Below, piece by piece: positions 4,034 through 21,887 of a stretch of DNA of 49,008 bases. The translations under genes and the position numbers were made by a program. Numbering within the stretch: the stretch's first letter is position 1; every line of letters starts with the position of its first letter. Source of the DNA: Bacteroidota bacterium (lineage in GTDB: Bacteria > Bacteroidota > Bacteroidia > B-17B0 > Aurantibacillaceae); the NCBI GenBank assembly GCA_021323535.1, contig JAJONO010000047.1, positions 1-49,008 of the forward strand. The letters are read 5' to 3'. Below the pieces are notes generated by a model. The model did not search any database and had not been told where the DNA came from. It saw nothing but the letters and a program-made list of their open reading frames with translations.

Positions 4034-5133
4034 TTTTTACTTACGGTTGAATTATAGATATCAATCATCTGCTGGAGGTTTCCGTTCCAGTCATAACGGT
4101 CGAGAACACTTTTTCTTGCCTTCAATCCAAGTTCTCTTGCTTCCTCCTGGTTATTCACCAGTTTATCAATTGCATCTGCCATTGCTACAGAATTTTTTTT
4201 CGGAATAACAATACCAAACTTTCCATGATCAACCACTTCCATTAAACCTCCCACGTCGGTTACAATAACAGGACGTTCGCATGACATAGCCTCTACCGTG
4301 GCAACACCAAAGCTCTCGCTGTCGTCGATAGACACATTAAGAAAAATGTCGAGGAGATTATGATAATTACTGATCTCCGAAAACGGGATGCGTCCGGTTA
4401 CTACAAAATGGTCTTCAAGTTCTTTTTCTTTGATCATTTTTCTGTAACCATCCAGATCGCTGCCACTTCCAATGAGATAGAATTTAAATTTTTTTTCAGG
4501 ATTGCGCTCAATTACAAGCTTTGCCGCGTCAATAATGTAAATAATTCCGTACTTCTCTTCAATAGGTTTAATTGTTCCAATATGGGTTACACTTTTATCC
4601 TTTCCTTCAAAATCCCTCTTCGAAAATTTTTGCACATCAACACCAAATGGCGTTACAACCACTTCTTTAGAAGTATACTTTCTCACTTCCTCTTTCATGA
4701 TATGACTTGTGGAAAGGATCACATTGGCTTTTTTGAGATTATACTGAAAAACCTTTTTGTGAAGTTTTGATCTCGAAGGAAAATCATACACATCAGCTCC
4801 CCACACGGATAAAATAAAAGGGTGGAAACCGGACAATGCTCCAATCAAACCGTAACTGGTGGCGTAATGCGCATGAAGAATATCAGGTTTAAAATGTTTG
4901 ATTATTCTCTTGAGAATGGTAACATATTTGAGATAAGAAAGTTTTGTAAAAGTGCTCTCGGCATTAATATTCGTTTCAGGTTCAAAAAACACTGTAATGT
5001 TTTTGTGAGTGTACCACTCGTAAGACGCTTTGTTGAAACTGAAAATTCCGATCTGCACACCTTTGTCTGCAAGTCCGAGCGCCCACTTTTCCGTATGCTC
5101 GCTGAATGTATCTGATAACAAAAGAACTTTCAT
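4030..5133 (-). CDS. Glycosyltransferase family 4 (GT-B fold)
   Basis: The 367-residue protein opens with MKVLLLSDTFSEHTEKWA, typical of the GT4 acceptor-binding domain. The donor domain carries the EX7E motif, Glu273-SFGVATV-Glu281, followed by PVIVTDVGGLMEVV. HAHYATSYG near residue 90 and GADVYDFPS are also family features. It should transfer a nucleotide-activated sugar with retention of configuration, on the cytoplasmic side of the membrane. Its start codon shares one base with the stop of the upstream GT2 gene, and its stop overlaps the first FemAB-like gene by 4 nt. Sugar specificity cannot be read from the sequence. Confidence 0.88.
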   Translation of the reverse strand: MKVLLLSDTFSEHTEKWALGLADKGVQIGIFSFNKASYEWYTHKNITVFFEPETNINAESTFTKLSYLKYVTILKRIIKHFKPDILHAHYATSYGLIGALSGFHPFILSVWGADVYDFPSRSKLHKKVFQYNLKKANVILSTSHIMKEEVRKYTSKEVVVTPFGVDVQKFSKRDFEGKDKSVTHIGTIKPIEEKYGIIYIIDAAKLVIERNPEKKFKFYLIGSGSDLDGYRKMIKEKELEDHFVVTGRIPFSEISNYHNLLDIFLNVSIDDSESFGVATVEAMSCERPVIVTDVGGLMEVVDHGKFGIVIPKKNSVAMADAIDKLVNNQEEARELGLKARKSVLDRYDWNGNLQQMIDIYNSTVSKK

Positions 5134-5891
5134 TAGCGAGGGAATAGTTTATGTTTAATTAATCTTAGTTTCGAGAACCAGCTCAGGAAATTCCAAGGTT
5201 TCCTGCCATACTCTTTACTAATAACAAGTTGTTCCTTTATAAATACAGGAGTGAGACTACCTGTTTTTGAAATATTATGCTGCCTGAAATTGGCCACTTT
5301 AAAATCACAGACGTACATGGTTGCGTCATTGAAAAGACAACGGAGAACATATTCGTAATCGAAACAGCAGTTGAACGTTTTAAGCAGGCCGATCTTATCT
5401 GTAAAAGATTTCTTAAAGAAAGATCCCTGCTGAAAAATGCCCGGCACTTTTTTTACCAGGGTTTCCTTATCAATTTTATATGCGGGGAAGGATCTCATGT
5501 ATTTACCATTCTCATCAATGTAATCAATAGCCCCGTAAATGTAATCGATCTGAGGCCGGTTCTTTACTATTTCCATCAACTTAAGAACACCTTCCGTATC
5601 CAGAGTATCATCGGTATTGAGCCATGTCCAATAATCTCCTGTAGATCTTAGTATTCCTTTATTGATAGCATCATATTGTCCCTTATCCTTCTCAACTTCT
5701 ACATGATCAAGTTCATTCTGATACCGGGAAATAATTGTCTGCACCTGCTCATTGGATTTACTATCGAAGAGAAGTATCTCGACCTGATGTCCTTTTGAAC
5801 CCGCAAGATGTTTTATTTCGAGTGCGTTTTTAATTGTTTCCTCAATATACAAATGTTGGTTATATGAAGGTATAATGATGGAAAATTTCAT
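5133..5891 (-). CDS. Glycosyltransferase family 2 (GT-A fold)
   Basis: The 252-residue protein begins with the family 2 strand MKFSIIIPSYNQHLYIEETI. It has an acidic donor-binding region, YWTWLNTDDTLD, around residue 90, with the DXD-type NTDD motif, after DKGQYDAINKG. GT2 enzymes of this sort add single sugars during polysaccharide or O-antigen assembly in the cytoplasm. It is followed directly by the GT4 gene (1-nt overlap). A 40-bp gap separates it from the unknown protein upstream; nothing notable was seen in that gap. Confidence 0.88.
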   Translation of the reverse strand: MKFSIIIPSYNQHLYIEETIKNALEIKHLAGSKGHQVEILLFDSKSNEQVQTIISRYQNELDHVEVEKDKGQYDAINKGILRSTGDYWTWLNTDDTLDTEGVLKLMEIVKNRPQIDYIYGAIDYIDENGKYMRSFPAYKIDKETLVKKVPGIFQQGSFFKKSFTDKIGLLKTFNCCFDYEYVLRCLFNDATMYVCDFKVANFRQHNISKTGSLTPVFIKEQLVISKEYGRKPWNFLSWFSKLRLIKHKLFPR

Positions 5892-6716: not shown

Positions 6717-7847
6717 CTGAAAAAACCTGAATTTGCATATTTATCTGCTGAAGATCCCCGGAACAAAAGAGTTTGGTCGGGAACCCTGTTTGGAATATAC
6801 AGGAGCCTGAGCTCTATTGGAAACGTTGATATTCTTGGTCCTTATAAGCCCCCAGTGCGTACCTTTTTTGGTAAAATGCTGAACCAGCTCAGCCTGAAGC
6901 TATTTAAAAAGCGCATCAGTTACAGGCACAGTAGCCTCGTTGCAAAAGGACATGGAAATTATTTTTCACAAAAACTGAAACAAAAACATTACGATTACAT
7001 CATTGCACCTGCTGCTTCGGGTGAGATTGCCTACCTGCAAACCGATATTCCTATTATTTACATTACAGACGGAACCTTTGCAAGTTGCCTCAATTATCAC
7101 GAAAGTCTGAGTAACCTTACAGAAAAATCTATTGACGAAGGAAATCTTATTGAGCAAAGGGCCATTGATAAAAGTAAACTCGTTATCGTGTCATCGCAAT
7201 GGGCAGCTGAATCGGTAAAAAAAGATTATAAAGCTTCGTCTCAAAAAATAAAGATACTTCCCTACGGCGCCAATTTCGAAATTTTACCATCAGAAAATGA
7301 ACTTCGTTTTGAAGAACCAAAAGAATGGAAATTACTTTTTGTCGGTGTTTATTGGGAAAACAAAGGAGGAGATATTGCACTCAAGGCGCATAACCTTCTT
7401 CGAGAAAAAGGATTTCCTGTTCGTTTAACTATTCTTGGATGCGTTCCTCCAATGGACATAAAAGATGAATATGTAAGAGTGATTCCCTTCATTGATAAAA
7501 ACGATTCTGATGGTCAGAAAAAATTATCTGAGATCTATAGAGAACATCATCTGCTTATTCTTCCTACACGGTTTGACTGCACACCAATTGTAATTAACGA
7601 AGCCAGTGCATTTGGTATGCCTTGTCTGATTGCAGATACCGGAGGTGTTAGAGGACACCTGGAAAATAATGTGAATGGTTTTTTAATAGATTACAATGAT
7701 AAAGGTGTGGGCTACGCCATGAGAATTGAAGAACTTATAAAATCACCTGCAGCTTATGTTGAACTCAGAAAAACTACGCGTCATAAATATGTAACAGAAT
7801 TGAACTGGGAACATTGGACAAAAGAATTTCAGAAACTTTTAAAATAA
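6717..7847 (+). CDS. Glycosyltransferase family 4, probably CTG-initiated
   Basis: The protein carries GT4 features: LPYGANFEILP, KLLFVGVYWENKGGD, and near the C terminus FDCTPIVINEASAFGMPCLIADTGG, with an E/D-X7-E-type site. The first ATG or GTG in frame is GTG 6855, but that would leave a 330-residue protein without the usual N-terminal strand. The frame stays open upstream to a TAG at 6705 and encodes KKPEFAYLSAEDPRNKRVWS and GTLFGIYRSLSSIG, which look like a normal GT4 N terminus. The best start is CTG 6717, giving 376 residues; no ATG, GTG or TTG is available there. It is the only plus-strand gene in this locus and its end overlaps the convergent GT2-GT4 fusion by 9 nt. Confidence 0.75.
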   Translation: MKKPEFAYLSAEDPRNKRVWSGTLFGIYRSLSSIGNVDILGPYKPPVRTFFGKMLNQLSLKLFKKRISYRHSSLVAKGHGNYFSQKLKQKHYDYIIAPAASGEIAYLQTDIPIIYITDGTFASCLNYHESLSNLTEKSIDEGNLIEQRAIDKSKLVIVSSQWAAESVKKDYKASSQKIKILPYGANFEILPSENELRFEEPKEWKLLFVGVYWENKGGDIALKAHNLLREKGFPVRLTILGCVPPMDIKDEYVRVIPFIDKNDSDGQKKLSEIYREHHLLILPTRFDCTPIVINEASAFGMPCLIADTGGVRGHLENNVNGFLIDYNDKGVGYAMRIEELIKSPAAYVELRKTTRHKYVTELNWEHWTKEFQKLLK

Positions 7848-9791
7848 CCCAAGATACTCTTTCCTGAACCTCTCTAATGAATAATGTGATTTCGCGTAAT
7901 TGTAGCAGTTAAGACTCATTTGTTCAATAGGTCTTCTGTTCTCCGTTAGATTGAGGAGAATTTTTACCGCATTATTTACAACAGCATCTTCAGAATCATT
8001 TGATAATAAAATTCCCCGGTCGGAATTTAAATGCAGCGGAATATCTCCCACAGGGGTACAAACCGGAACCACTCCATGTGCCATTGCCTCCATCACCACC
8101 ATTGGAAAACCTTCACGTTCGGAGGTAAGGAGAAGAATATCATTTTCTTTCCAGATCTGTTCCATAATTTTAATATCGTAAACAATACCATAAAACTTAG
8201 TTCCTTTCATGTTCCTCTCTTCAAAATCGCCAACAAAAGAAAACCCAATTTTTTTTGTCTGCTTCACACATTCCGAAATGATCCTGTAAACCAGGTGTGG
8301 CCTTTTCTCTGGTGAATTTCTTCCTACAAAAACAATTCTGAGTTTTTCACTCAAAGGTTTTACCGGTTTTTCCGCAGGAACAGAAGTACAATTAACGATC
8401 CATTTCAGATGTTGTTTTTTCTCCTCTGGAAAACCAAAAAAGTCGTAAAGTTTTTCCGCCTGTAGTTTTGCACGATTACTTACAAAAACCCTGTATTTCA
8501 TATTAAGCAGAACGTAAATGTTCTCGATCGTCCATGCTTCCGTGTTATCAAATGTGTAATCGTGGATCAATTCAGAAACCTCATGCGTTAAAGAGAATTT
8601 TTTTGCCAGATCATAAAAATATTCCGCATTACATCCAAGGATCTTCCCGGTTCTATTACCGGCAATATGATCTTCTATTAATTTACGCGATCGCTTTTGA
8701 GTGAGAAAATAATTTATCGCTAATCCAACATTGACAACTGTACTTTCACTGTTCTTAAAATTCTTAATATAAAGTGTTTCTTTATGAATACCCGCGAAAA
8801 TCACAAAAGGTTTTTTTTCTTTCAGAACATTTGTAATATCCGCATGTACTCTTTCCGCTCCACCCACATGAGAATATGGCCAGATGAGATATAATTTCGT
8901 TTGAGCCCCCGAAAGTTTTTGCTTTAAGTCGTTATACTGACGTAAGGCTTTAAAGGGATTGATAGTGAAGAGTCTTTTGAGAAACCGAAACAGCGAAGCG
9001 AGATGATATACTTTTAAAATTCTTAATCGCGTTCGAATGTTCGCGTAAACCGATCGCCACAATGTTCCGCCTAATTTACCTTCACTGAAACTTCTTGAAA
9101 TGAATTTTTTCCTAAGGATAAGAACTTTCTCTTCTGTCCTTATTTGTCTGTTTTCTTTTTGTGAAATCGAACCGGTGTGATAACGGTAGTGGAGGAGCAC
9201 CTCCTTTGTTTTAGAAAATTTACATTTCGCGTTCGCCAGTCTTAACCATAAATCCCAATCTTCGCTTCCTTTTTGTCGCGGATCGTATTTGTGCTTTTTA
9301 AGAATTTCCGATCGGATCATTACACTAGGATGAGCGATACAATTTTCCTTTGGCAACCATTTTGCGATCTGAGGCCCACTGACTTCATTCATGTTCCATT
9401 CAGCCACCACTTCGTTTTTAGCGTTTACAAAACTTATTCCTGTACATACGAGATCCGCTTTTTCCTTCTCAAAATACTTTAACTGAGTTTCGAATCTCAT
9501 TGGAAGAGAAATATCATCGTGGTCCATTCTGGCGATGTATTTTCCTTTTGCAAGTTCTACTCCTTTATTTAATGTTGCTATTAATCCAAGGTTACTTTCA
9601 TTTTTAATGTAACGGATGCGTTCGTCATTAAATGACAGAATAATTTCTTCGCTATTATCATCGGAACCATCATTGATGATAAGAAATTCGAAATTGCGAT
9701 ACGACTGGTTCAAAATACTTTCTATAGCGCTCTTCAAAAAGCGTGAACCATTATATACCGGAAGCAAAACTGATATTTCGGGAATGATCAT
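7839..9791 (-). CDS. Bifunctional GT2-GT4 glycosyltransferase fusion
   Basis: This 650-residue protein joins two transferase domains. Residues 1 to about 260 form a GT2 domain, with ISVLLPVYNGSRFL at the start and the donor-binding MDHDD at 89-93. Residues from about 300 to 650 form a GT4 domain, with YSHVGGAERVHADI, RIVFVGRNSPEKRPHLV and EGFPMVVMEAMAHGVVP, the last being the EX7E motif. Fusions of this kind can add two successive sugars or couple two linkages. It overlaps the GT14 gene by 4 nt upstream and the convergent plus-strand GT4 gene by 9 nt downstream, and so closes the long minus-strand operon that starts at 21887. Confidence 0.88.
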   Translation of the reverse strand: MIIPEISVLLPVYNGSRFLKSAIESILNQSYRNFEFLIINDGSDDNSEEIILSFNDERIRYIKNESNLGLIATLNKGVELAKGKYIARMDHDDISLPMRFETQLKYFEKEKADLVCTGISFVNAKNEVVAEWNMNEVSGPQIAKWLPKENCIAHPSVMIRSEILKKHKYDPRQKGSEDWDLWLRLANAKCKFSKTKEVLLHYRYHTGSISQKENRQIRTEEKVLILRKKFISRSFSEGKLGGTLWRSVYANIRTRLRILKVYHLASLFRFLKRLFTINPFKALRQYNDLKQKLSGAQTKLYLIWPYSHVGGAERVHADITNVLKEKKPFVIFAGIHKETLYIKNFKNSESTVVNVGLAINYFLTQKRSRKLIEDHIAGNRTGKILGCNAEYFYDLAKKFSLTHEVSELIHDYTFDNTEAWTIENIYVLLNMKYRVFVSNRAKLQAEKLYDFFGFPEEKKQHLKWIVNCTSVPAEKPVKPLSEKLRIVFVGRNSPEKRPHLVYRIISECVKQTKKIGFSFVGDFEERNMKGTKFYGIVYDIKIMEQIWKENDILLLTSEREGFPMVVMEAMAHGVVPVCTPVGDIPLHLNSDRGILLSNDSEDAVVNNAVKILLNLTENRRPIEQMSLNCYNYAKSHYSLERFRKEYLGLF

Positions 9792-10660
9792 TTAGGCGAA
9801 ATGTACGAATAGATTTTGTCAATAATGGCATTATCGATATTCTCATCGAATTTCCTTGCAAAAAAACCGGAACTGTTCGTGAGTCTGTTATAATCCTCCA
9901 TTCTAAATGTACGAGGATACTCGGGCCCGGTTTTCCAATCCACTTCTCTAAGACTATTATTTTCAACTGATGAAGCAAGAGGCGAACTCATTAAAATTGT
10001 TTGCAAAATAATTTCATCGGCGCAACGTGTATTTCTGAAGCGCAGATAAAAAGAATTATTCTTTGTAATAAAATCATCGGCATATTCGGCAGCTCTTCTG
10101 CTTATGGTAAACCAATTTGCTCCTCCATATAATTGAACATTCACCGAACGGTAGAAACGAAACGCGTTTTGCAGAGCATGAAGAAAAACGTTCCATTTAG
10201 CATAGAACCATTTCTGATTTTCATTAAAATCTGTGACCCAATATAAACGATAACGATCGAGTCCACCCTTATCTTCAAATCCAGCGTTTGGTAATTTAGA
10301 GAATGTAAAATATTCTTTGTTTGTTTTAGAAAGAAATTCTTTAAGCTCAGACATTGGTTTAACAGGAAGATCCTGTCCACTTATAAGACTTAGGTAATCA
10401 ACATCTGAATGAAGCAATGCCTTTTTAAGAAGAAAAAAAGTTGCCTCAATCTGATTGAAGCTTCCCCAATAAACGGGATATTCAGCATAAATTTCAAGAT
10501 CCTTTTTGCTTTTATTGCTGGTAATGAAATCCGAAAATCCCATCGATGATTTTTTATCAATGTGAATAAAAACGCGGCATCCTTCGCTTAAAAGATAATC
10601 CGTTAGTTTTTGTAACTGTTTCGGATTTTTATGGGCCAGTATGAGGAAAGCCAGTTTCAT
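9788..10660 (-). CDS. GT14 family (core-2/I-branching type) glycosyltransferase
   Basis: The start at 10660 was chosen because its ATG shares one base with the fucosyltransferase stop and because MKLAFLILAHKNPKQLQKL is a normal N terminus for the family; an earlier start would lie inside the upstream gene. The protein then has 290 residues. The segments FIHIDKKS, YWGSFNQIEATFFLL and DYLSLISGQDLPVK are hallmarks of the core-2/I-branching beta-1,6-GlcNAc transferase family. Bacterial members are cytoplasmic and may use UDP-GlcNAc or UDP-xylose. It ends with a 4-nt overlap into the GT2-GT4 fusion gene. The substrate is uncertain. Confidence 0.85.
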   Translation of the reverse strand: MKLAFLILAHKNPKQLQKLTDYLLSEGCRVFIHIDKKSSMGFSDFITSNKSKKDLEIYAEYPVYWGSFNQIEATFFLLKKALLHSDVDYLSLISGQDLPVKPMSELKEFLSKTNKEYFTFSKLPNAGFEDKGGLDRYRLYWVTDFNENQKWFYAKWNVFLHALQNAFRFYRSVNVQLYGGANWFTISRRAAEYADDFITKNNSFYLRFRNTRCADEIILQTILMSSPLASSVENNSLREVDWKTGPEYPRTFRMEDYNRLTNSSGFFARKFDENIDNAIIDKIYSYISPK

Positions 10661-11514
10661 TAAAGCAGTATGTATTCTTTTGGGAGTATATCTTTTGAAT
10701 CGTTGGCAGAGGCAAACCAATTTTTTGGGGCAATAACCATTTTAGTTTCATTAGTATTCAACCAGCCCGACCACCAACTATAGCTGCTATTGGCAATGAT
10801 ATTGTGTTTACACATGCTCATGAGAAAAAGCTCTGCAGACGATTGTCCGCTTTTGCTTTGAACCACTTTTACGCCGGGTATGTGTTTAAAGTTTTCTTTG
10901 CACCAATCGGGGTCATCACTAAAAATAAAAAATACAGGGGACTTTGTTTGTTCTTTTATTAATGAAATGGCTTTGCTGTAATAGTCCATTCCACATACGC
11001 CATGAAATTCATTAGCGCTTTTCAGGTTCACATAATCCCCCCGCCTGACATGTACTCCAACAGAGTTACTGTCATTTATTCCCGAGATAATTTCCTTGTC
11101 ACCATTTCGTAAATCGTAAGCAGGAGAAAATTCTTTCAGTAAAATATGTCTTATGTTCTTAAAATAGTTTTCCGACTGCCAGTAACCATCGAGATATGTA
11201 TCCGGTCCTGATTTTTCAAATTGCGGATCATAATTTCCTGAAGGAGAAAAATATTTTCCTTTATAACCTAAGTTGAAAATCCTCGACAATCGCCTTCTGT
11301 TTTTAAATTGTGCCGTTATTTCTTCCGTTGCAAACTGTGCCTGAATAGTTAACTGATCTAATTCATAGTCGCGTTTTGTATAATCCGAAGCTGGTAAATC
11401 CAGGAATGAGCGATCGAGATATAAAGGAACGTTATGTTTAACGGACAATGATCTACCCGCCGCATACTGGAACATCTGGTTCCCTAAACCTCCCATTAAT
11501 TTAACAACGATCAT
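10660..11514 (-). CDS. Alpha-1,2-fucosyltransferase (GT11)
   Basis: The 284-residue protein shows the GT11 pattern: MGGLGNQMFQYAAG at residues 7-20, the GDP-fucose-binding HVRRGDY at 155-161, and NSSYSWWSGWLN near the C terminus. GT11 enzymes move fucose from GDP-fucose to the O-2 of galactose or a related sugar. No GDP-fucose synthesis genes (gmd, fcl) are in the window, so the donor must be made elsewhere. The ATG lies 1 nt after a stop codon at 11516-11518 that appears to be the original end of the broken GT2 gene upstream, which matches the tight spacing of this operon. Confidence 0.92.
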   Translation of the reverse strand: MIVVKLMGGLGNQMFQYAAGRSLSVKHNVPLYLDRSFLDLPASDYTKRDYELDQLTIQAQFATEEITAQFKNRRRLSRIFNLGYKGKYFSPSGNYDPQFEKSGPDTYLDGYWQSENYFKNIRHILLKEFSPAYDLRNGDKEIISGINDSNSVGVHVRRGDYVNLKSANEFHGVCGMDYYSKAISLIKEQTKSPVFFIFSDDPDWCKENFKHIPGVKVVQSKSGQSSAELFLMSMCKHNIIANSSYSWWSGWLNTNETKMVIAPKNWFASANDSKDILPKEYILL

Positions 11515-11515
11515 C

Positions 11516-12379
11516 TTAAATCTTACTTAGCAAAATTAAAAATTTAAAGTACCATTCAGGTAAGGGCGCTTCGCATCCGAGTTGTACAATTTCATTATAA
11601 GCTTTTATTTTATGAGAACGGAAAATTCTGATAAAAACTTATTGTAGAGATACGAATGTTCGCAAACCTGGGTTTTCTTATCCATCGAAGAAGCAGTTAC
11701 CTGGGCCTCATGATTACTGATATTCACAATCAGCGCCTTTGGAATATAAGCAAAGTGAGGATTCATCTTAATCATTGAATAATAAAAATCAAAGTCGACA
11801 AGAAATTTCATTCGTTCATCAAATCTTAATTCTGTTTTACGAAACATAACTGCTGTTGGAGAACTCAAATCTTAATTCTGTTTTACGAAACATAACTGCT
11901 GTTGGAGAACCAATCCTATTCTCCGTAAAGAGAATACCCGGATCAGATTCCAGTTCCTTTAAAAAATCAGGAGAAGGAACATTATAAGAAATAGTGTCTT
12001 CTCTCACATTAAGTATTTCCGAATCACAAAAGGCGAAGTCACACTTCTTGTCTCTGAATACTTTTTCGAATTCCTCCAATGAAGTTGGAGATGACAACCA
12101 ATCGTCGTGATGAATTATCTTTATCAAATCTCCTTTTGCCAGATCGAGCGCCTTGTTCCAGTTTTTTGGGGAACCAAGTGAAACAGGATTTTTATGGAAA
12201 TGAATATTTAATTTTTGCTCATATTCTCTCACGAGTTTTTCAACATCGTTTGTAGTTGAATCGTCACTTATAATAACCTCAAAATTTTTGTACGTTTGAA
12301 CGCATAAAGATTCCATTGCTCTTCTTAGAAAGTCAACCTGGTTATAGGTGGGAATACATATACTTATCAAACTATTCAA
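11516..12379 (-). pseudogene. GT2 glycosyltransferase broken by two frameshifts
   Basis: The 5' part (12379 to about 11865) encodes a GT2 domain: SLISICIPTYNQVDFLRRAM, then IIHHDDWLSS. The frame is lost at an exact 46-bp tandem duplication (11819-11910) and ends after ELRFEFSNSSYVS. Removing one copy rejoins ELRF to DERMKFLVDFDFYYSM and keeps the frame to a TAA at 11605. That stop is itself suspicious. In another frame, 11516-11620 reads RSHKIKAYNEIVQLGC and then EAPLPEWYFKFLILLSKI-stop, a credible GT2 C terminus that ends 1 nt before the fucosyltransferase start. A one-base loss in the A5 (11633-11637) or A4 (11622-11625) run would explain the second shift. The repaired protein would have about 272 residues. 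Confidence 0.8.
11819..11910. repeat. 46-bp exact tandem duplication inside a GT2 gene
   Basis: Positions 11819-11864 and 11865-11910 are identical; each copy starts TCAAATCTTAATTCTG and ends GTTGGAGAAC. The unit is not a multiple of three, so it shifts the GT2 reading frame. No divergence between the copies suggests a recent event or an assembly artefact. Confidence 0.9.
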
Positions 12380-12380
12380 A

Positions 12381-13307
12381 TTATTTATTCAATTTTAATC
12401 CAAGACGTAGCCAGAAGGATGGATTTTCTTTTTTTGTAATGTATTTTAAAAGGCCGACGCGTTTTAGTTCATTAAACCTTTCATTAAACAGAGAAGAAGG
12501 ACTTTGTGACAAAGTTGTTTTAATTGCTGATATATGTCCGTTCACTCTTTCCCTCCACTCTTTCTCAAGTCCGAATGATTTTATTTTTTCGCCATTTGCC
12601 TCAAGAACCTTTAATCCAAAAATCTGCATTTTAAAAACATCTTTGCTCAGACTTGTTTTATGAATTCTCACTAAGGCTTTTGATTCAGAAGCATCGTGAT
12701 ATTGCAATTTCTTGTTGGCCAGTAAAAATCGCATCCAGAGTTCCCAATCCTCATTGGCCAATAACTCCTCATTAAACAATCCACATTCTTTCAGGAGTGA
12801 ACTTCTGAAAACAGGAGAACAGATCACCATAATGTTTCCACCGAGAATTGTTTTTACCAGTTCTTTTCCCTGGCCGGAAATATATTTCATCCATGGTTTT
12901 CCATTTGGTTCACAATGGTATTCGTAAAATAATTCGTTCTTGTTTCCGGATTTAAAATAACGCATATCAGAATAAACAATATCTACGTCCGGATTTTGCT
13001 CAAGGAATTCTACGGAAGTTTCCAGCTTTCTTTTTTCAATAAGATCGTCTGCATCAAGAAAAAGGATGTACTCACCTTTCGCCATTCTTAACGCTGTATT
13101 ACGCGCATGAGAAACGCCATGATTTTCCTGCTTCACACAAATAATTCTTTTATCGTTGTATTTCTTCAGGACAGTTTGTGTTTCGTCCGTAGATCCGTTA
13201 TCTACAATGATAATTTCAAAGTCAGTGTATGTCTGAGCCAGAAGCGAATCAATTGTCTCGGCAATGAAGTGACCATAGTTATATGCTGGAATAATTACCG
13301 AAACCAT
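12381..13307 (-). CDS. Glycosyltransferase family 2
   Basis: The 308-residue protein opens with MVSVIIPAYNYGHFIAETID and has the donor-site segment YILFLDADDLIEKRKL at about residues 80-95, with DADD as the metal and nucleotide ligand. ARNTALRMAKG precedes it as usual. NEDWELWMRFLL in the middle of the protein is a frequent GT2 element for the catalytic base region (ED motif). It overlaps the GT2 gene upstream by 13 nt and is followed, after 1 nt, by the broken GT2 gene. Its role is a single sugar transfer in the cytoplasm; specificity is not determinable. Confidence 0.9.
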   Translation of the reverse strand: MVSVIIPAYNYGHFIAETIDSLLAQTYTDFEIIIVDNGSTDETQTVLKKYNDKRIICVKQENHGVSHARNTALRMAKGEYILFLDADDLIEKRKLETSVEFLEQNPDVDIVYSDMRYFKSGNKNELFYEYHCEPNGKPWMKYISGQGKELVKTILGGNIMVICSPVFRSSLLKECGLFNEELLANEDWELWMRFLLANKKLQYHDASESKALVRIHKTSLSKDVFKMQIFGLKVLEANGEKIKSFGLEKEWRERVNGHISAIKTTLSQSPSSLFNERFNELKRVGLLKYITKKENPSFWLRLGLKLNK

Positions 13308-14029
13308 TTTGTAAAAAAGTTTGTTTTTTTCTCAGGTGTTTTTGCCTTTTTAATTTCTTCCTCGGAAATATACTTTCTTTGGATTTTGTCTTTCTCCTCT
13401 TTTATAATTGGCGCGTTTTTCAGATCAGAGCTTAGTCCATTCAATTCAAAAACGGCTATAAAGTGATTAATATGTTTGGTTGTGACTTTATTGGCAATAA
13501 CAGTCTTGAAGAAAAAATCGTAATCGCCACATATCTTATAAATTGTTTCGTAGAGTCCGAAACGCTCAAATAAATCTTTCCTGATAAATGAAACAGGGTG
13601 CCACAATGTATCACGCACCATGTGTTCAAGCGTTAATTCGTCGGGCATAAAACCTTCGGTGATAGTTCCTTTATCGGAGATTTTAAGATTGCCATAAACG
13701 ATTTCGGTTCCGGTTAAAAAGGGAACAACTTTTTCAATCGTATTCCTTTCCGCCAAAGTATCGCCCGAGTTCAGAAACAAAAGATAATCGCCGGTGGCTT
13801 TTTGAATACCCTTGTTCATCGCGTCATAGATACCATTGTCTTTCTCAGAAACAGAATAGGTGATTTTAGAAACATTTTCTTCAATTGTATTTTTACTACC
13901 GTCCGTTGAGCCCCCATCAATAACAATATATTCAATGTTTGAATACGTTTGATTCAGAACCGACTCAATGGTTCTGTTTAGTCCATCTTTATTGTTGAAA
14001 TTTATGCTTATGACAGAAACTTTCATCAT
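13295..14029 (-). CDS. Glycosyltransferase family 2 (WcaA/PssE-like)
   Basis: The 244-residue protein begins MMKVSVISINFNNKDGLNRT, with two possible adjacent ATGs. It has DNGIYDAMNKGIQKATGDYLLFLNSGD, written here as neighbouring segments: the NSGD replaces a classic DXD. This variant is common in GT2 enzymes of colanic-acid and capsule loci (residues about 80-107). IYKICGDYDFFFKT supplies the downstream acidic site. The C terminus is lysine-rich. It starts 2 nt after the GT4 stop codon upstream and overlaps the next GT2 by 13 nt. Function: sugar addition during repeat-unit assembly. Confidence 0.88.
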   Translation of the reverse strand: MMKVSVISINFNNKDGLNRTIESVLNQTYSNIEYIVIDGGSTDGSKNTIEENVSKITYSVSEKDNGIYDAMNKGIQKATGDYLLFLNSGDTLAERNTIEKVVPFLTGTEIVYGNLKISDKGTITEGFMPDELTLEHMVRDTLWHPVSFIRKDLFERFGLYETIYKICGDYDFFFKTVIANKVTTKHINHFIAVFELNGLSSDLKNAPIIKEEKDKIQRKYISEEEIKKAKTPEKKTNFFTKWFR

Positions 14030-18081: not shown

Positions 18082-19818
18082 TTATTCTTCCCGCTTTTTA
18101 TAGAAACAAAGTGTGTCGGAATTTGACGCACATCTGTAGCTGTATTCGAGCTTATAATTGTCTTTAAAATTAACATTAAATTTTCTGAAAAGGTTTATGA
18201 ATTTTTCGTGATCCGCCAGTCTTTTTGGCATAACTAACAGTTTTACTTCATTGGAGAATTTCCCTTTTTTGAGAATAAATTCACAGGAAGCAACATGATC
18301 CGGACTATCTGAAACCCAGGTAGCGGGTTGTAAAGGTGCTTCAGCAATTTGTGAAATACCCATGGTGGTGGCAAAAGAAAAGAAAGGTTCTTTAGAAGGA
18401 TTTAACTTCTTCATGATTTCATGAATTGAAACATAATCTGAAAAAACAGGATAACTCTCATAAATATTCTGAGCAAGTCCGTAACTGAATCTGTATTTCT
18501 TTTCCGTAAGATCAGCCTGGCGATATGGTGTTTTTACAGCCCCGTTCCAGAGAGAAATTGTAATTCCTACGCAGAGAAACAAACTCAGAACAGATAAAAT
18601 AAGTGTTGGATCTTTCTTATTCGGCAGGATCAATAAAACCATAGCTCCTACGAAAAAAATAAAAAAGTGCGATGCTGTATAATAGAAGGGATTATTAGTG
18701 CCGAACATGCAAAAGAAGGGCATCACGAAAAGAAGACCCGTGAGAATTACGAATGGCCTTTTCATTTTAAAAATATCAGGTCCTTTTGCCTGCCTCACGT
18801 AAATAATATAATAAAACGTGTTAAGAATAAAAATCATCTCCATAAGAAAATCGTTTGGCAAGCCAACGCTGTTTCCTTTTACAAATTTTGAAGCGGCAAT
18901 AAAATTCAGAACAATCAAGCCAAAAAACATTGATAAGGAAAGATTTGAATTTCTAAAAATCTTCTGAAGATAAAAAGCAGAGAGTAAAACAAACAGCTGT
19001 ACCCCGATGAGGAGCCATCCTCCCAACGCGTTCCGGATGTCATTAAAATCGTTCGCGTACGAATGCCCCGACATATGTTTTATTCCGAAGATAGCATCAT
19101 AGTAATTAGAACAAATGAGTTTAAAAAGCCCCGTATCATTTACAAAAAACACATACCCTAATGCTATTCCACCAATAACTCCTAGAGAACGCAGCAGGAA
19201 TTTTTGCCTGATGATAAAAACATGAATCACAAAAAATAAAAACAGAAAAATAAACAGGTTTGGGAATTTGGAAAGGAACGCGGCGAAACAAATAATTCCG
19301 AAGAAAACGGACGACATGATCATTTTAAATTTATCCGTCATTCCAAAGTCCATCAGCAATACTCCGAAAGCCAGGAGCGACAATACCAGCGACCATGAAT
19401 TGTAAGATAAGGTCATTGGCAGATAATCGTAATTGATAAAAACACTTATGACCAAAAGTAATGCGACAAGAACATACGTGCTCCGGCTTTGCTTTATTCC
19501 CGAATTAAGAAGAAAACTTCTCAGGCCAAAAAAGAAAAATAAAGCTGCTGCAATCTGTAATAAAAGTTTTGCGGTCCTTAAATGAATAAGTGTAGGACTT
19601 CCAAAACAAATCATGTTATTGAGGATCCCAAAATTTGTATGAAGGAATTCGTACTTTGGTGTGTAATCCGAAAAATAAACGTAAAATGCTTCATCCGATA
19701 ACTCAAATCCTTTGTCCGAAAAATACCAGGCGGCAAAGAAAAGCGTAAGTAATGTACACACGGAAACAAGAAGGGAAAATCCGGTGAAGATATTTTTTAA
19801 TTTCAGCTGAGCGACCAT
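18082..19818 (-). CDS. Polytopic membrane protein, GT-C glycosyltransferase-like
   Basis: The 578-residue protein has about ten or more hydrophobic spans, beginning with FSLLVSVCTLLTLFFAAWYF. The first large periplasmic loop has an acidic pair in FELSDEAFYVYFS (about 38-50), as in GT39/GT83 dolichyl- or undecaprenyl-phosphate-sugar-dependent enzymes, where Asp-Glu forms the active site. The C-terminal 130 residues are soluble. It would transfer a lipid-linked sugar in the periplasm, onto the polysaccharide or lipid A. It overlaps the ABC ATPase gene by 16 nt. The GT-C assignment is inferred from topology and the acidic motif rather than a full family match. Confidence 0.65.
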   Translation of the reverse strand: MVAQLKLKNIFTGFSLLVSVCTLLTLFFAAWYFSDKGFELSDEAFYVYFSDYTPKYEFLHTNFGILNNMICFGSPTLIHLRTAKLLLQIAAALFFFFGLRSFLLNSGIKQSRSTYVLVALLLVISVFINYDYLPMTLSYNSWSLVLSLLAFGVLLMDFGMTDKFKMIMSSVFFGIICFAAFLSKFPNLFIFLFLFFVIHVFIIRQKFLLRSLGVIGGIALGYVFFVNDTGLFKLICSNYYDAIFGIKHMSGHSYANDFNDIRNALGGWLLIGVQLFVLLSAFYLQKIFRNSNLSLSMFFGLIVLNFIAASKFVKGNSVGLPNDFLMEMIFILNTFYYIIYVRQAKGPDIFKMKRPFVILTGLLFVMPFFCMFGTNNPFYYTASHFFIFFVGAMVLLILPNKKDPTLILSVLSLFLCVGITISLWNGAVKTPYRQADLTEKKYRFSYGLAQNIYESYPVFSDYVSIHEIMKKLNPSKEPFFSFATTMGISQIAEAPLQPATWVSDSPDHVASCEFILKKGKFSNEVKLLVMPKRLADHEKFINLFRKFNVNFKDNYKLEYSYRCASNSDTLCFYKKREE

Positions 19819-21056
19819 TTATTCTCCACTAAAAAACATTCTTTATGATCCTGTGGAAGCGCCCTGCCTGTACCATAAAAATCGCCTTCCTCAACATTTA
19901 ACAAAAGTGCCTCCTGGAGATAGTCTTGTATGATTCCATCTTTATAAGCAATGAGATTACAGATATAACTTCCGTCAGCTAAAGGAAATTTCTTCACCTT
20001 GCATTGAAGCACATTGTTTCCTGAAAGCACATCAATGCTATAACCGCTAATGGCATTCGACAAAGTGAACATTTCTTTTCCTTCATCTGTGTAAACGGTC
20101 ATGGCCATAGAGAAATTTGTGAGCTGCTCCTTCGTTAGTTTAAAATGAAATTCAAACGTTACATCCATTCCACATTGCGCCGAATGCATTACTGCACCTG
20201 CTGCGTCCTTCATGATCACATTTGTAAAACGAAACATGCCCTCACCCATTCTATCCGAGCGATCGCTGATAGCAGTGCGTGAAATGTTAACCACTTCGCT
20301 GAGATAATGCTTTATACAAGAAGAGGTATCTGATAAAGGAAAGCCGATCGTTCCTTTGTTAAGCACAAAAGCTTTGTTACATAAATTCTGGATCGCCGCT
20401 AAATTATGACTTACAAACAAAATTGTTTTTCCCTGGGAGCGACTGATCTCGTTCATTTTACCGAGACATTTTTTCTGGAAAGCTGAATCTCCTACGGCGA
20501 GAACTTCGTCTACAATCAAAATTTCAGGATTTAAATGCGCCGCTACTGCAAAAGCCAAACGAACATACATTCCGGAAGAATACCGTTTCACGGGTGTATC
20601 CAGAAACTGTTCCACTTCACTGAAAGCAACGATCTCGTCGAACTGTGAATCGATCTCTTTTTTGCTCATCCCAAGAATAGAACCGTTGAGATAAATATTT
20701 TCACGTCCGGTTAAATCACCATGAAATCCTGTGCCTACTTCAAGTAAGCTCGCCATTCTTCCGTAATACTCGATTCGGCCGCTGCTTGGTTTTACGATAC
20801 GGCTCAGAATTTTCAAGAGTGTGGATTTTCCCGCTCCATTTCTTCCAATGATGCCAACACGATCGCCATGATTAACTTCAAAACTGATATCACGAAGCGC
20901 CCAGAACTCTTCTTCTGTTTGTCCGCCTTCTGCTTTGAACATGTTTTTTAATCCGCCCGCAAAAGCTGAAAGCAAAGAGTCGTTGGAGTTCTTCTGTTTG
21001 TGAAGAATTCTATACTTCTTACTTATTTTTTCAACTTTAATAGCGACCTGGCTCAT
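19803..21056 (-). CDS. ABC transporter ATPase for polysaccharide export, Wzt-type
   Basis: The 417-residue protein has an N-terminal ABC ATPase: Walker A GRNGAGKST (71-79), the signature YSSGM (159-163) and Walker B ILIVDE (179-184) followed by AVGD. The remaining 160 residues form a beta-rich domain (VTFEFHFKL, GNNVLQCKVKKFPLADGSY) like the Wzt C-terminal domain. In O-antigen systems that domain recognises the modified end of the chain. With the permease it forms the exporter that moves finished polysaccharide across the inner membrane. It follows the permease by 3 nt. Confidence 0.93.
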   Translation of the reverse strand: MSQVAIKVEKISKKYRILHKQKNSNDSLLSAFAGGLKNMFKAEGGQTEEEFWALRDISFEVNHGDRVGIIGRNGAGKSTLLKILSRIVKPSSGRIEYYGRMASLLEVGTGFHGDLTGRENIYLNGSILGMSKKEIDSQFDEIVAFSEVEQFLDTPVKRYSSGMYVRLAFAVAAHLNPEILIVDEVLAVGDSAFQKKCLGKMNEISRSQGKTILFVSHNLAAIQNLCNKAFVLNKGTIGFPLSDTSSCIKHYLSEVVNISRTAISDRSDRMGEGMFRFTNVIMKDAAGAVMHSAQCGMDVTFEFHFKLTKEQLTNFSMAMTVYTDEGKEMFTLSNAISGYSIDVLSGNNVLQCKVKKFPLADGSYICNLIAYKDGIIQDYLQEALLLNVEEGDFYGTGRALPQDHKECFLVENKWSLS

Positions 21057-21059
21057 AAA

Positions 21060-21887
21060 TTAAATATAATCGGCAAAGGATTTTTCGAAATTGAAAAAGT
21101 ATTTTATTGAAATAAAAAGCATCACCAAAGTAAACACAACAGAACTTGCTGCGTATACCATATTAAAACTTTCGAACGTACCGGTAAAACAATATTTAAA
21201 AGCATTGAGAATAAACACAAGAGGATTTGCCTGGTAAATAACTTTAAACCACTCAGGCATATTTAATCCCAGAACAAAATCTGAACTCAGGAAAACCGGG
21301 GACGCATAAAACAAAATCTGAATGAGAAAAGGAAGAATGAATTTAATATCGCGGTATTTAACAGAAGCCGTTGCTGAAATTAATCCGAGACTAAAACAAA
21401 ACACCAATCCATAAATAATAACAAGGGGAAGAAACACAATCTGCCACGGTGGCATTCCTTTGAAGATAAGAAACAGGACGAAGAAGATGACGAAGGCGAT
21501 AAGAAAATCAACAAGGCAAACAAGTATACCTGACAAAGGAAGAAGCAGTTTTGGAAAATATACTTTTGTAAGAATATTTGAATTTGCCGACAGGGAATTG
21601 CTCACATCGGTAATAGTAGTTGACAAAAGTTGCCAGAAAACAATTCCTGTAGAAACAAGAATGAAACTATCTATGAAACTATTCGATTTCTCAACCAAAA
21701 AACGAAGTGCCCCGAAAATTAGAATGTTTACAACCGGACGAACAATGCTCCATGCAAATCCCATGCGGGTTTGTTTGTAGCGAACAAAAACATCACGAAG
21801 CGAGAGGTACCTGAAAAGACTTCCGTATCGTTTCAACTCTCCAAAATTTATGAAGGATTTGTCGGAGCTGGTTATTACGGTCTTCAT
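21060..21887 (-). CDS. ABC-2 permease for polysaccharide export, Wzm-type
   Basis: The 275-residue protein has six hydrophobic spans. It contains the family segment LRDVFVRYKQTRMGFAWSIVRPVV before the first span, which is the conserved interfacial helix of Wzm/TagG/RfbA permeases. FWQLLSTTITDVSNSLSANSN and KYRDIKFILPFLIQILFYASPV are also typical. It pairs with the ATPase downstream, so the locus uses ABC-dependent export, not the Wzy pathway; indeed no Wzx or Wzy was found. It is the first gene of the operon; a -7-like box (21956-21949) lies about 60 nt upstream. Confidence 0.93.
   Translation of the reverse strand: MKTVITSSDKSFINFGELKRYGSLFRYLSLRDVFVRYKQTRMGFAWSIVRPVVNILIFGALRFLVEKSNSFIDSFILVSTGIVFWQLLSTTITDVSNSLSANSNILTKVYFPKLLLPLSGILVCLVDFLIAFVIFFVLFLIFKGMPPWQIVFLPLVIIYGLVFCFSLGLISATASVKYRDIKFILPFLIQILFYASPVFLSSDFVLGLNMPEWFKVIYQANPLVFILNAFKYCFTGTFESFNMVYAASSVVFTLVMLFISIKYFFNFEKSFADYI

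Follow-up and report, generated by a model that had tools for sequence, protein, structure and literature searches.

In the window analysed here—a stretch of 49,008 nucleotides from a Bacteroidota genome—a GT2-family glycosyltransferase gene of a Wzm/Wzt-type surface-glycan cluster has likely been inactivated in the recent past by a tandem duplication of 46 bp; a separate deletion of 40 bp, judged against the closest homologues, lies further along. Most likely these changes are a matter of ordinary decay, or of diversification, among the genes of a glycan cluster; passive reversion is possible, and an evolved switch is not supported.

The exact tandem duplication that the initial annotation of this DNA had placed at 11819-11910 was recovered both by Tandem Repeats Finder (period 46, 2.0 copies, 100% match) and by direct comparison of the two copies, which are identical and stand head to tail on the minus strand (11819-11864, the first in plus-strand order, and 11865-11910). 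The match run was exactly 46, the same as the period; microhomology at the junction was looked for and none was found, the homology ending with the 46-bp unit. When the surrounding 3 kb was subjected to 200 single-base shuffles, exact tandem units (10-100 bp searched) reached 11 bp at most, and a duplication of 46 bp is far beyond chance. Searching the genome of origin with 331 bp around the duplication returned a single place only.

As had been claimed, the affected gene, read from the minus strand, changes frame at the duplication, with ELRF and DERMKFL as the two sides of the shift. The gene opens with a TTG codon at 12379, which may be its natural start, and the open frame ends at 11837, giving an N-terminal piece (11837-12379) of 180 amino acids, the final nine of which are out of frame. 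This piece scores 79.2 bits against the Pfam profile PF00535 (E 4.4e-22; curated cut-off 23.3), so that the GT-A half passes, and it is 54% identical to an intact homologue. A middle piece of 85 codons in a shifted frame (11608-11862, with its stop at 11605-11607) matches the same homologue ORF; its first 14 codons lie within the repeat and are also read in the N-terminal piece, and on its own it had no Pfam match. The last part is a C-terminal tail of 40 codons (frame coordinates 11516-11638, stop at 11516-11518), and its codons at 11519-11638 can be read in no other frame than that of the N-terminal piece. The start and the tail of the gene share one frame, the middle is read in another, and about 65 codons are out of frame. 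As a result of the frame being lost in the duplication, the PF00535 catalytic domain is not complete in any one frame, and 7 of 42 conserved columns—including those of a VD..Y motif—lie beyond the end of the ORF, which supports the further claim that the duplication disables the gene. On these grounds the inactivation of the gene is well supported, and a loss of enzyme activity would be expected from it.

To place the broken gene among its relatives, we used 19 loci (L003-L021) and a set of 80 further loci (L105-L184), the latter being the best 80 of 564 confirmed relatives obtained by a protein search of genome contigs with alignment; a first protein search of the contigs had returned no relative. 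Some members of the two groups appear to be the same genes, e.g., L140 and L003, L105 and L004, or L106 and L005. A single ORF matches both the N-terminal and the middle piece in 16 of the 19 loci and in all 80 of the larger set, with the middle piece matched at E < 0.01 in 79 homologues and at 0.012 in the remaining one. Because both pieces match one ORF in the homologues, it follows that in the window gene the duplication puts the latter half of the catalytic domain into the wrong frame. A comparison with related genomes had been proposed as a check, and it bore the duplication out as a departure from the homologues: all 80 read through in one ORF, and an exact tandem repeat (unit of 15-300 bp), in the gene or within 50 bp of it, was found in none of them. 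A conserved switch is not indicated, because the repeat is absent from every member of this set; as judged from these sequences, it does not appear to persist at this position among relatives, as the repeat tract of a contingency locus would.

We further asked how well the gene has kept its conserved positions, defined as the 42 columns retained in at least 90% of 25 homologues hand-picked from the 80. Thirty-five of these columns precede the duplication and seven, including the VD..Y motif, follow it, with none in the C-terminal tail. The window gene retains the conserved residue at 30 of the 35 columns before the duplication and at all seven between the two lesions. Because the copies are identical, the outer pieces of the gene are both open and these residues have been retained, constraint on the gene probably lasted until recent times, and the duplication itself is probably recent. 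A genus-wide DNA search of 40 genomes, including the genome of origin and with at most 12 candidates scored per genome, found no strain of the same species, in genome collections that have one genome per species; besides the window itself, it returned only G009, at 71-77% over two short pieces.

The second lesion lies about 190 bp further into the gene than the duplication and was omitted from the initial annotation. Nucleotide alignment with the three closest homologues (L003, L004 and L005) revealed a gap of 40 columns near 11626, at an approximate site of 11620-11640 on the minus strand, where the window gene is without 40 bp that all three homologues have. Past the middle-frame stop at 11605-11607, L003 and L005 continue for about 50 residues, and the tail codons of the window gene match the C-termini of L106 (E 2e-7), L005 (E 1.7e-6) and L003 (E 0.008), while the other readable stretch in the tail region had no match of note. 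The tail is short and variable, only 8 of the 80 ORFs matching it at E < 1, and the evidence for it comes from the closest homologues. The beginning and the end of the gene are in the same frame because the gain of 46 bp and the loss of 40 bp cancel. A single event giving rise to both changes was considered as well, and nothing was found to tie the two together.

The spacing of the neighbouring genes agrees with this placement of the tail. Between its stop codon and the start of the next gene there is 1 bp, and the stop of the middle frame leaves 90 bp. At 11 of the 12 junctions of consecutive minus-strand ORFs from 21887 to 7839 the gaps range from -61 to +11 bp (with ORF starts as mechanically listed), and the junction after the broken GT2 ORF, at 322 bp, is the outlier among the 12. 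Given a gap of 1 bp, the stop of the tail frame fits the other junctions of the cluster.

The 40-bp gap also bears on what the loss of one copy could achieve. According to the initial annotation, one copy fewer would restore the frame, with one or four copies in frame and two or three out of it. This arithmetic stands for the stretch adjacent to the repeat and for the catalytic part, but it fails for the gene as a whole: one copy gives no frame of normal length, because a further shift occurs at the 40-bp gap. With one copy, translation would run for 242 amino acids to the stop at 11605-11607 and give a product shorter than each of the best 80 of 564 homologues (258-343 amino acids, counted from the position matching the start of the window gene). 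The shortest length in this range is that of L105, a close homologue representing the same gene as L004, which ends at 258 amino acids at an in-frame stop around 3774 with the usual tail readable behind it. Tail loss may have happened more than once in this GT2 subfamily, as L105 suggests. The 40-bp gap may not be lethal to the enzyme—the tail has no conserved column, L105 ends at 258 amino acids and SpsA (1qg8), a solved GT2 enzyme, has 238 residues—in which case the duplication may be the sole inactivating lesion.

From a structural perspective, the loss of frame and the tail were located in a model of the intact homologue L106, which had a mean pLDDT of 94.5. The model shares the GT-A fold of GT2 enzymes, its Foldseek matches (best chain) including SpsA (1qg8, E 2.1e-14), TarP (6h1j, E 6.9e-15) and WrtF (9omn, E 8.9e-15); these enzymes are only 16-21% identical to the modelled protein, and the window gene, unlike them, is broken. 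In the numbering of the model, the frame is lost between the strand at 165-168 and the helix at 183-194 of the GT-A domain. The tail corresponds to three helices (245-257, 264-268 and 277-291) predicted with high confidence except for the last few residues, and all three are missing from the 242-residue frame of a one-copy allele.

The broken gene sits between two intact-looking minus-strand neighbours in a Wzm/Wzt-type glycan cluster with further glycosyltransferases: the preceding GT2-family gene at 12381-13307 (PF00535, E 3.1e-40) and the next gene at 10660-11514, a GT11-family, fucosyltransferase-like gene (PF01531, E 1.4e-40). Another intact-looking GT2 gene, at 13295-14029 on the same strand, completes a conserved order of four genes, as supported by Pfam matches and by synteny with L140. 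This locus, from a metagenome-assembled genome of a Sphingobacteriaceae bacterium, has the same order GT2-GT2-GT2-GT11 with the third gene intact, and its four genes are 52%, 47%, 54% and 47% identical to those of the window. L140 and L003 appear to be the same record, and the window genome and that from which L003 comes are counted in one genus. The transporter pair of the cluster (19803-21887, minus strand; PF00005, PF14524 and PF01061) comprises a Wzt-type ATPase with a Wzt_C domain (19803-21056) and an ABC-2 permease (21060-21887). The description of the surroundings as an intact-looking operon accordingly holds up, the cluster being tightly packed. The G+C content is 37.1% for the cluster (206-21887), 34.2% for the GT2 gene and 39.2% for the genome of origin (80 stretches). 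Two further ORFs of the window deserve mention in their own right: a 650-residue two-domain glycosyltransferase (7839-9791), whose N-terminal domain is of the GT2 type and whose C-terminal domain belongs to glycosyl transferases group 1, and a plus-strand ORF of 330 amino acids (6855-7847), glycosyltransferase-like by eye, that runs opposite to the otherwise minus-strand cluster.

Drawing from these observations, the following course of events can be proposed. Replication slippage, or template switching without homology at the junction, would have copied 46 bp of the gene's own coding sequence in tandem. The duplication throws the rest of the catalytic domain, its second half, into another frame, with translation stopping 322 bp before the next gene, and a separate 40-bp deletion relative to the closest homologues shifts the frame back and takes the C-terminal tail out of the one-copy frame. 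One sugar linkage of the glycan would be expected to be lost as a consequence, and the downstream genes might be translated more weakly. Passive loss of one copy could occur, and it would yield a 242-residue protein without the C-terminal helices and of uncertain activity.

A different reading of the same repeat is reversible phase variation, in which gain and loss of 46 bp at appreciable frequency would turn a shortened but still active GT2 enzyme of 242 residues on with one copy and off with two, and thereby change the surface glycan. The repeat is exact, has the right frame arithmetic and shifts the frame inside a surface-glycan ORF; the retention of all seven conserved columns between the lesions, the lack of conservation in the tail and the existence of homologues of 258 amino acids would all suit such a switch. 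Spontaneous loss of one copy is, however, expected of exact tandem repeats in general and is no evidence for a dedicated switch. The absence of any exact tandem repeat from the best 80 of 564 homologues argues against phase variation, as do the failure of one-copy loss to give a full-length frame and the lack, in that frame, of the tail helices of the L106 model; in sequence terms, the second lesion makes reversible switching less likely. The precedent of spontaneous, reversible duplications in pneumococcal capsule genes, described in PMC4243769 and PMC4022640, speaks for it, and on balance we regard phase variation as unlikely. The stronger proposal, that the tail-less 242-residue enzyme would be active and the repeat gained and lost often enough, in the natural population of an uncultured Bacteroidota lineage, to act as an on/off switch of one glycan linkage, e.g., under phage pressure, is harder still to credit and seems quite improbable. 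Least credible of all is programmed recoding, by which ribosomes would shift frame at both junctions and so produce a nearly full-length protein. The gene's start frame is indeed its tail frame, but many stop codons lie between the N-terminal piece and the tail in the two-copy frame, the first two parts share a single frame in all 80 homologues, and the ribosomes would have to change frame twice, in opposite directions. Recent inactivation by the duplication, in a gene that also bears a separate deletion and still retains the conserved residues between the two, remains the reading that we prefer.

The duplication could also be an artefact of assembly, with the second copy arising from contig ends that overlap by 46 bases (k-mer 47) or from strain mixing in a metagenome assembly. 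A match run equal to the period, with no homology at the junction, would be consistent with this, and many assemblies of the relatives are metagenomic. We therefore weigh such an origin against a scan for exact arrays of period 20-400 in the genome of origin, covering 1,825,115 bases without counting N, or about 34% of 5,312,254 (with 2,000 bases taken twice). Seven exact arrays were found, with periods of 46, 57, 23, 22, 21 and 21 plus a 7-bp array seen at period 21. A fixed-overlap contig join was rejected as a candidate, no other exact 46-bp duplication being present in the window and 100 stretches of its genome; such an artefact is not supported, because it should recur at one length. The existence of further exact two-copy duplications in this genome, those of 22 and 23 bp being not divisible by three and overlapping open stretches, can be counted in favour of an artefact; against it, same-genus control genomes carry such a duplication as well, and an artefact leaves the second lesion of the gene unexplained. 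In those controls (40 stretches of three genomes, 800,000 bases), five arrays were found, four of them in one repetitive stretch and the fifth a 67-bp unit present twice that touches an open stretch at its end. A second control, the 80 named loci (485,176 bases), yielded two exact arrays. Arrays not divisible by three and overlapping open stretches of 100 codons or more numbered three of the seven in the genome of origin (46, 22 and 23 bp) and one in both controls together, and these numbers are too small to tell a difference. This genome shares with others the presence of exact two-copy duplications, whose lengths vary; taken together, the evidence makes an assembly artefact improbable.

Several of the other arrays in this genome are of interest in themselves. 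An exact 22-bp tandem duplication (L083, G000:C65, 462-506) falls within the final codons of an open stretch on the minus strand (429-1400) that resembles a sensor histidine kinase by eye; past the repeat, a plausible kinase C-terminus can be made out by eye in another frame, and this is likely a second frame-shifting duplication of the genome. A 23-bp exact tandem duplication (L222, G000:C85, stretch 40001-60000, at 5180-5226) overlaps an open stretch on the minus strand (4439-5215) at its upstream end. In a 341-codon minus-strand open stretch (L038, G000:C17, 2144-2258), 57 bp occur twice and exactly—a multiple of three, with the frame kept. Finally, eight copies of the 7-bp unit TAGTGTT stand between two open stretches (L023, G000:C2, 14536-14591), possibly as a length-variable tract beside a gene.

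If the duplication is real and recent, the window would add one more case of a glycan gene lost by a short tandem duplication and revertible for a while. It also illustrates why a candidate switch of this kind should be compared with intact relatives: the arithmetic of copy number by itself pointed to full repair, and the homologues contradict it. Spontaneous tandem sequence duplications were reportedly found by Waite et al. (2001, 2003) in the pneumococcal genes cap3A (serotype 3), cap8E and tts (serotypes 8 and 37), with reversion and phase variation. Other sources give further context. Sequence duplication in pneumococcal capsule genes is described as spontaneous and reversible (PMC4243769), and the link between cap3A and tandem duplication is repeated elsewhere (PMC2995930). 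In one nontypeable invasive pneumococcus, wchA has a short tandem duplication, alongside many inactivating mutations of other kinds described there, and the reversion frequency expected for insertions of nine bp at longest is at most about 1 in 100,000 (PMC4022640). Other surface-glycan loci are described as varying by different means: reversible homopolymer and IS changes, not duplications, in an E. coli capsule locus (PMC13410964); one extra C shifting the frame of an acetyltransferase-related gene, along with homopolymer frameshifts in surface-glycan genes (PMC3090145); and homopolymer frameshifts in surface-glycan genes together with whole-gene tandem duplications (PMC6892558). Together with PMC10333322, the last two sources make up two papers on Bacteroides and one on H. 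pylori. The passages considered from PMC10333322 contain no case of a frame-shifting tandem duplication like that of the window, and those from PMC11868660 and PMC10333322, like the reference entries of PMC11272040 and PMC2600794, add nothing on mechanism. No precedent in Bacteroidota was found by a literature search whose coverage mostly excludes subscription journals.

The duplications in pneumococcal capsule genes are the closest precedent found. As in cap3A, cap8E and tts, a tandem duplication inside a glycan-biosynthesis ORF would inactivate the window gene and be reversible in principle by copy loss; reversion and phase variation are reported for the pneumococcal genes, whereas the case of the window is one of sequence only. 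The hosts are unrelated, and the window gene additionally carries a second, frame-changing deletion. The wchA case resembles it in that a short tandem duplication lies in the glycosyltransferase gene of a single isolate; according to PMC4022640, wchA was compared with reference loci of the same serotype, whereas the window gene was compared with homologues of about 50% identity.
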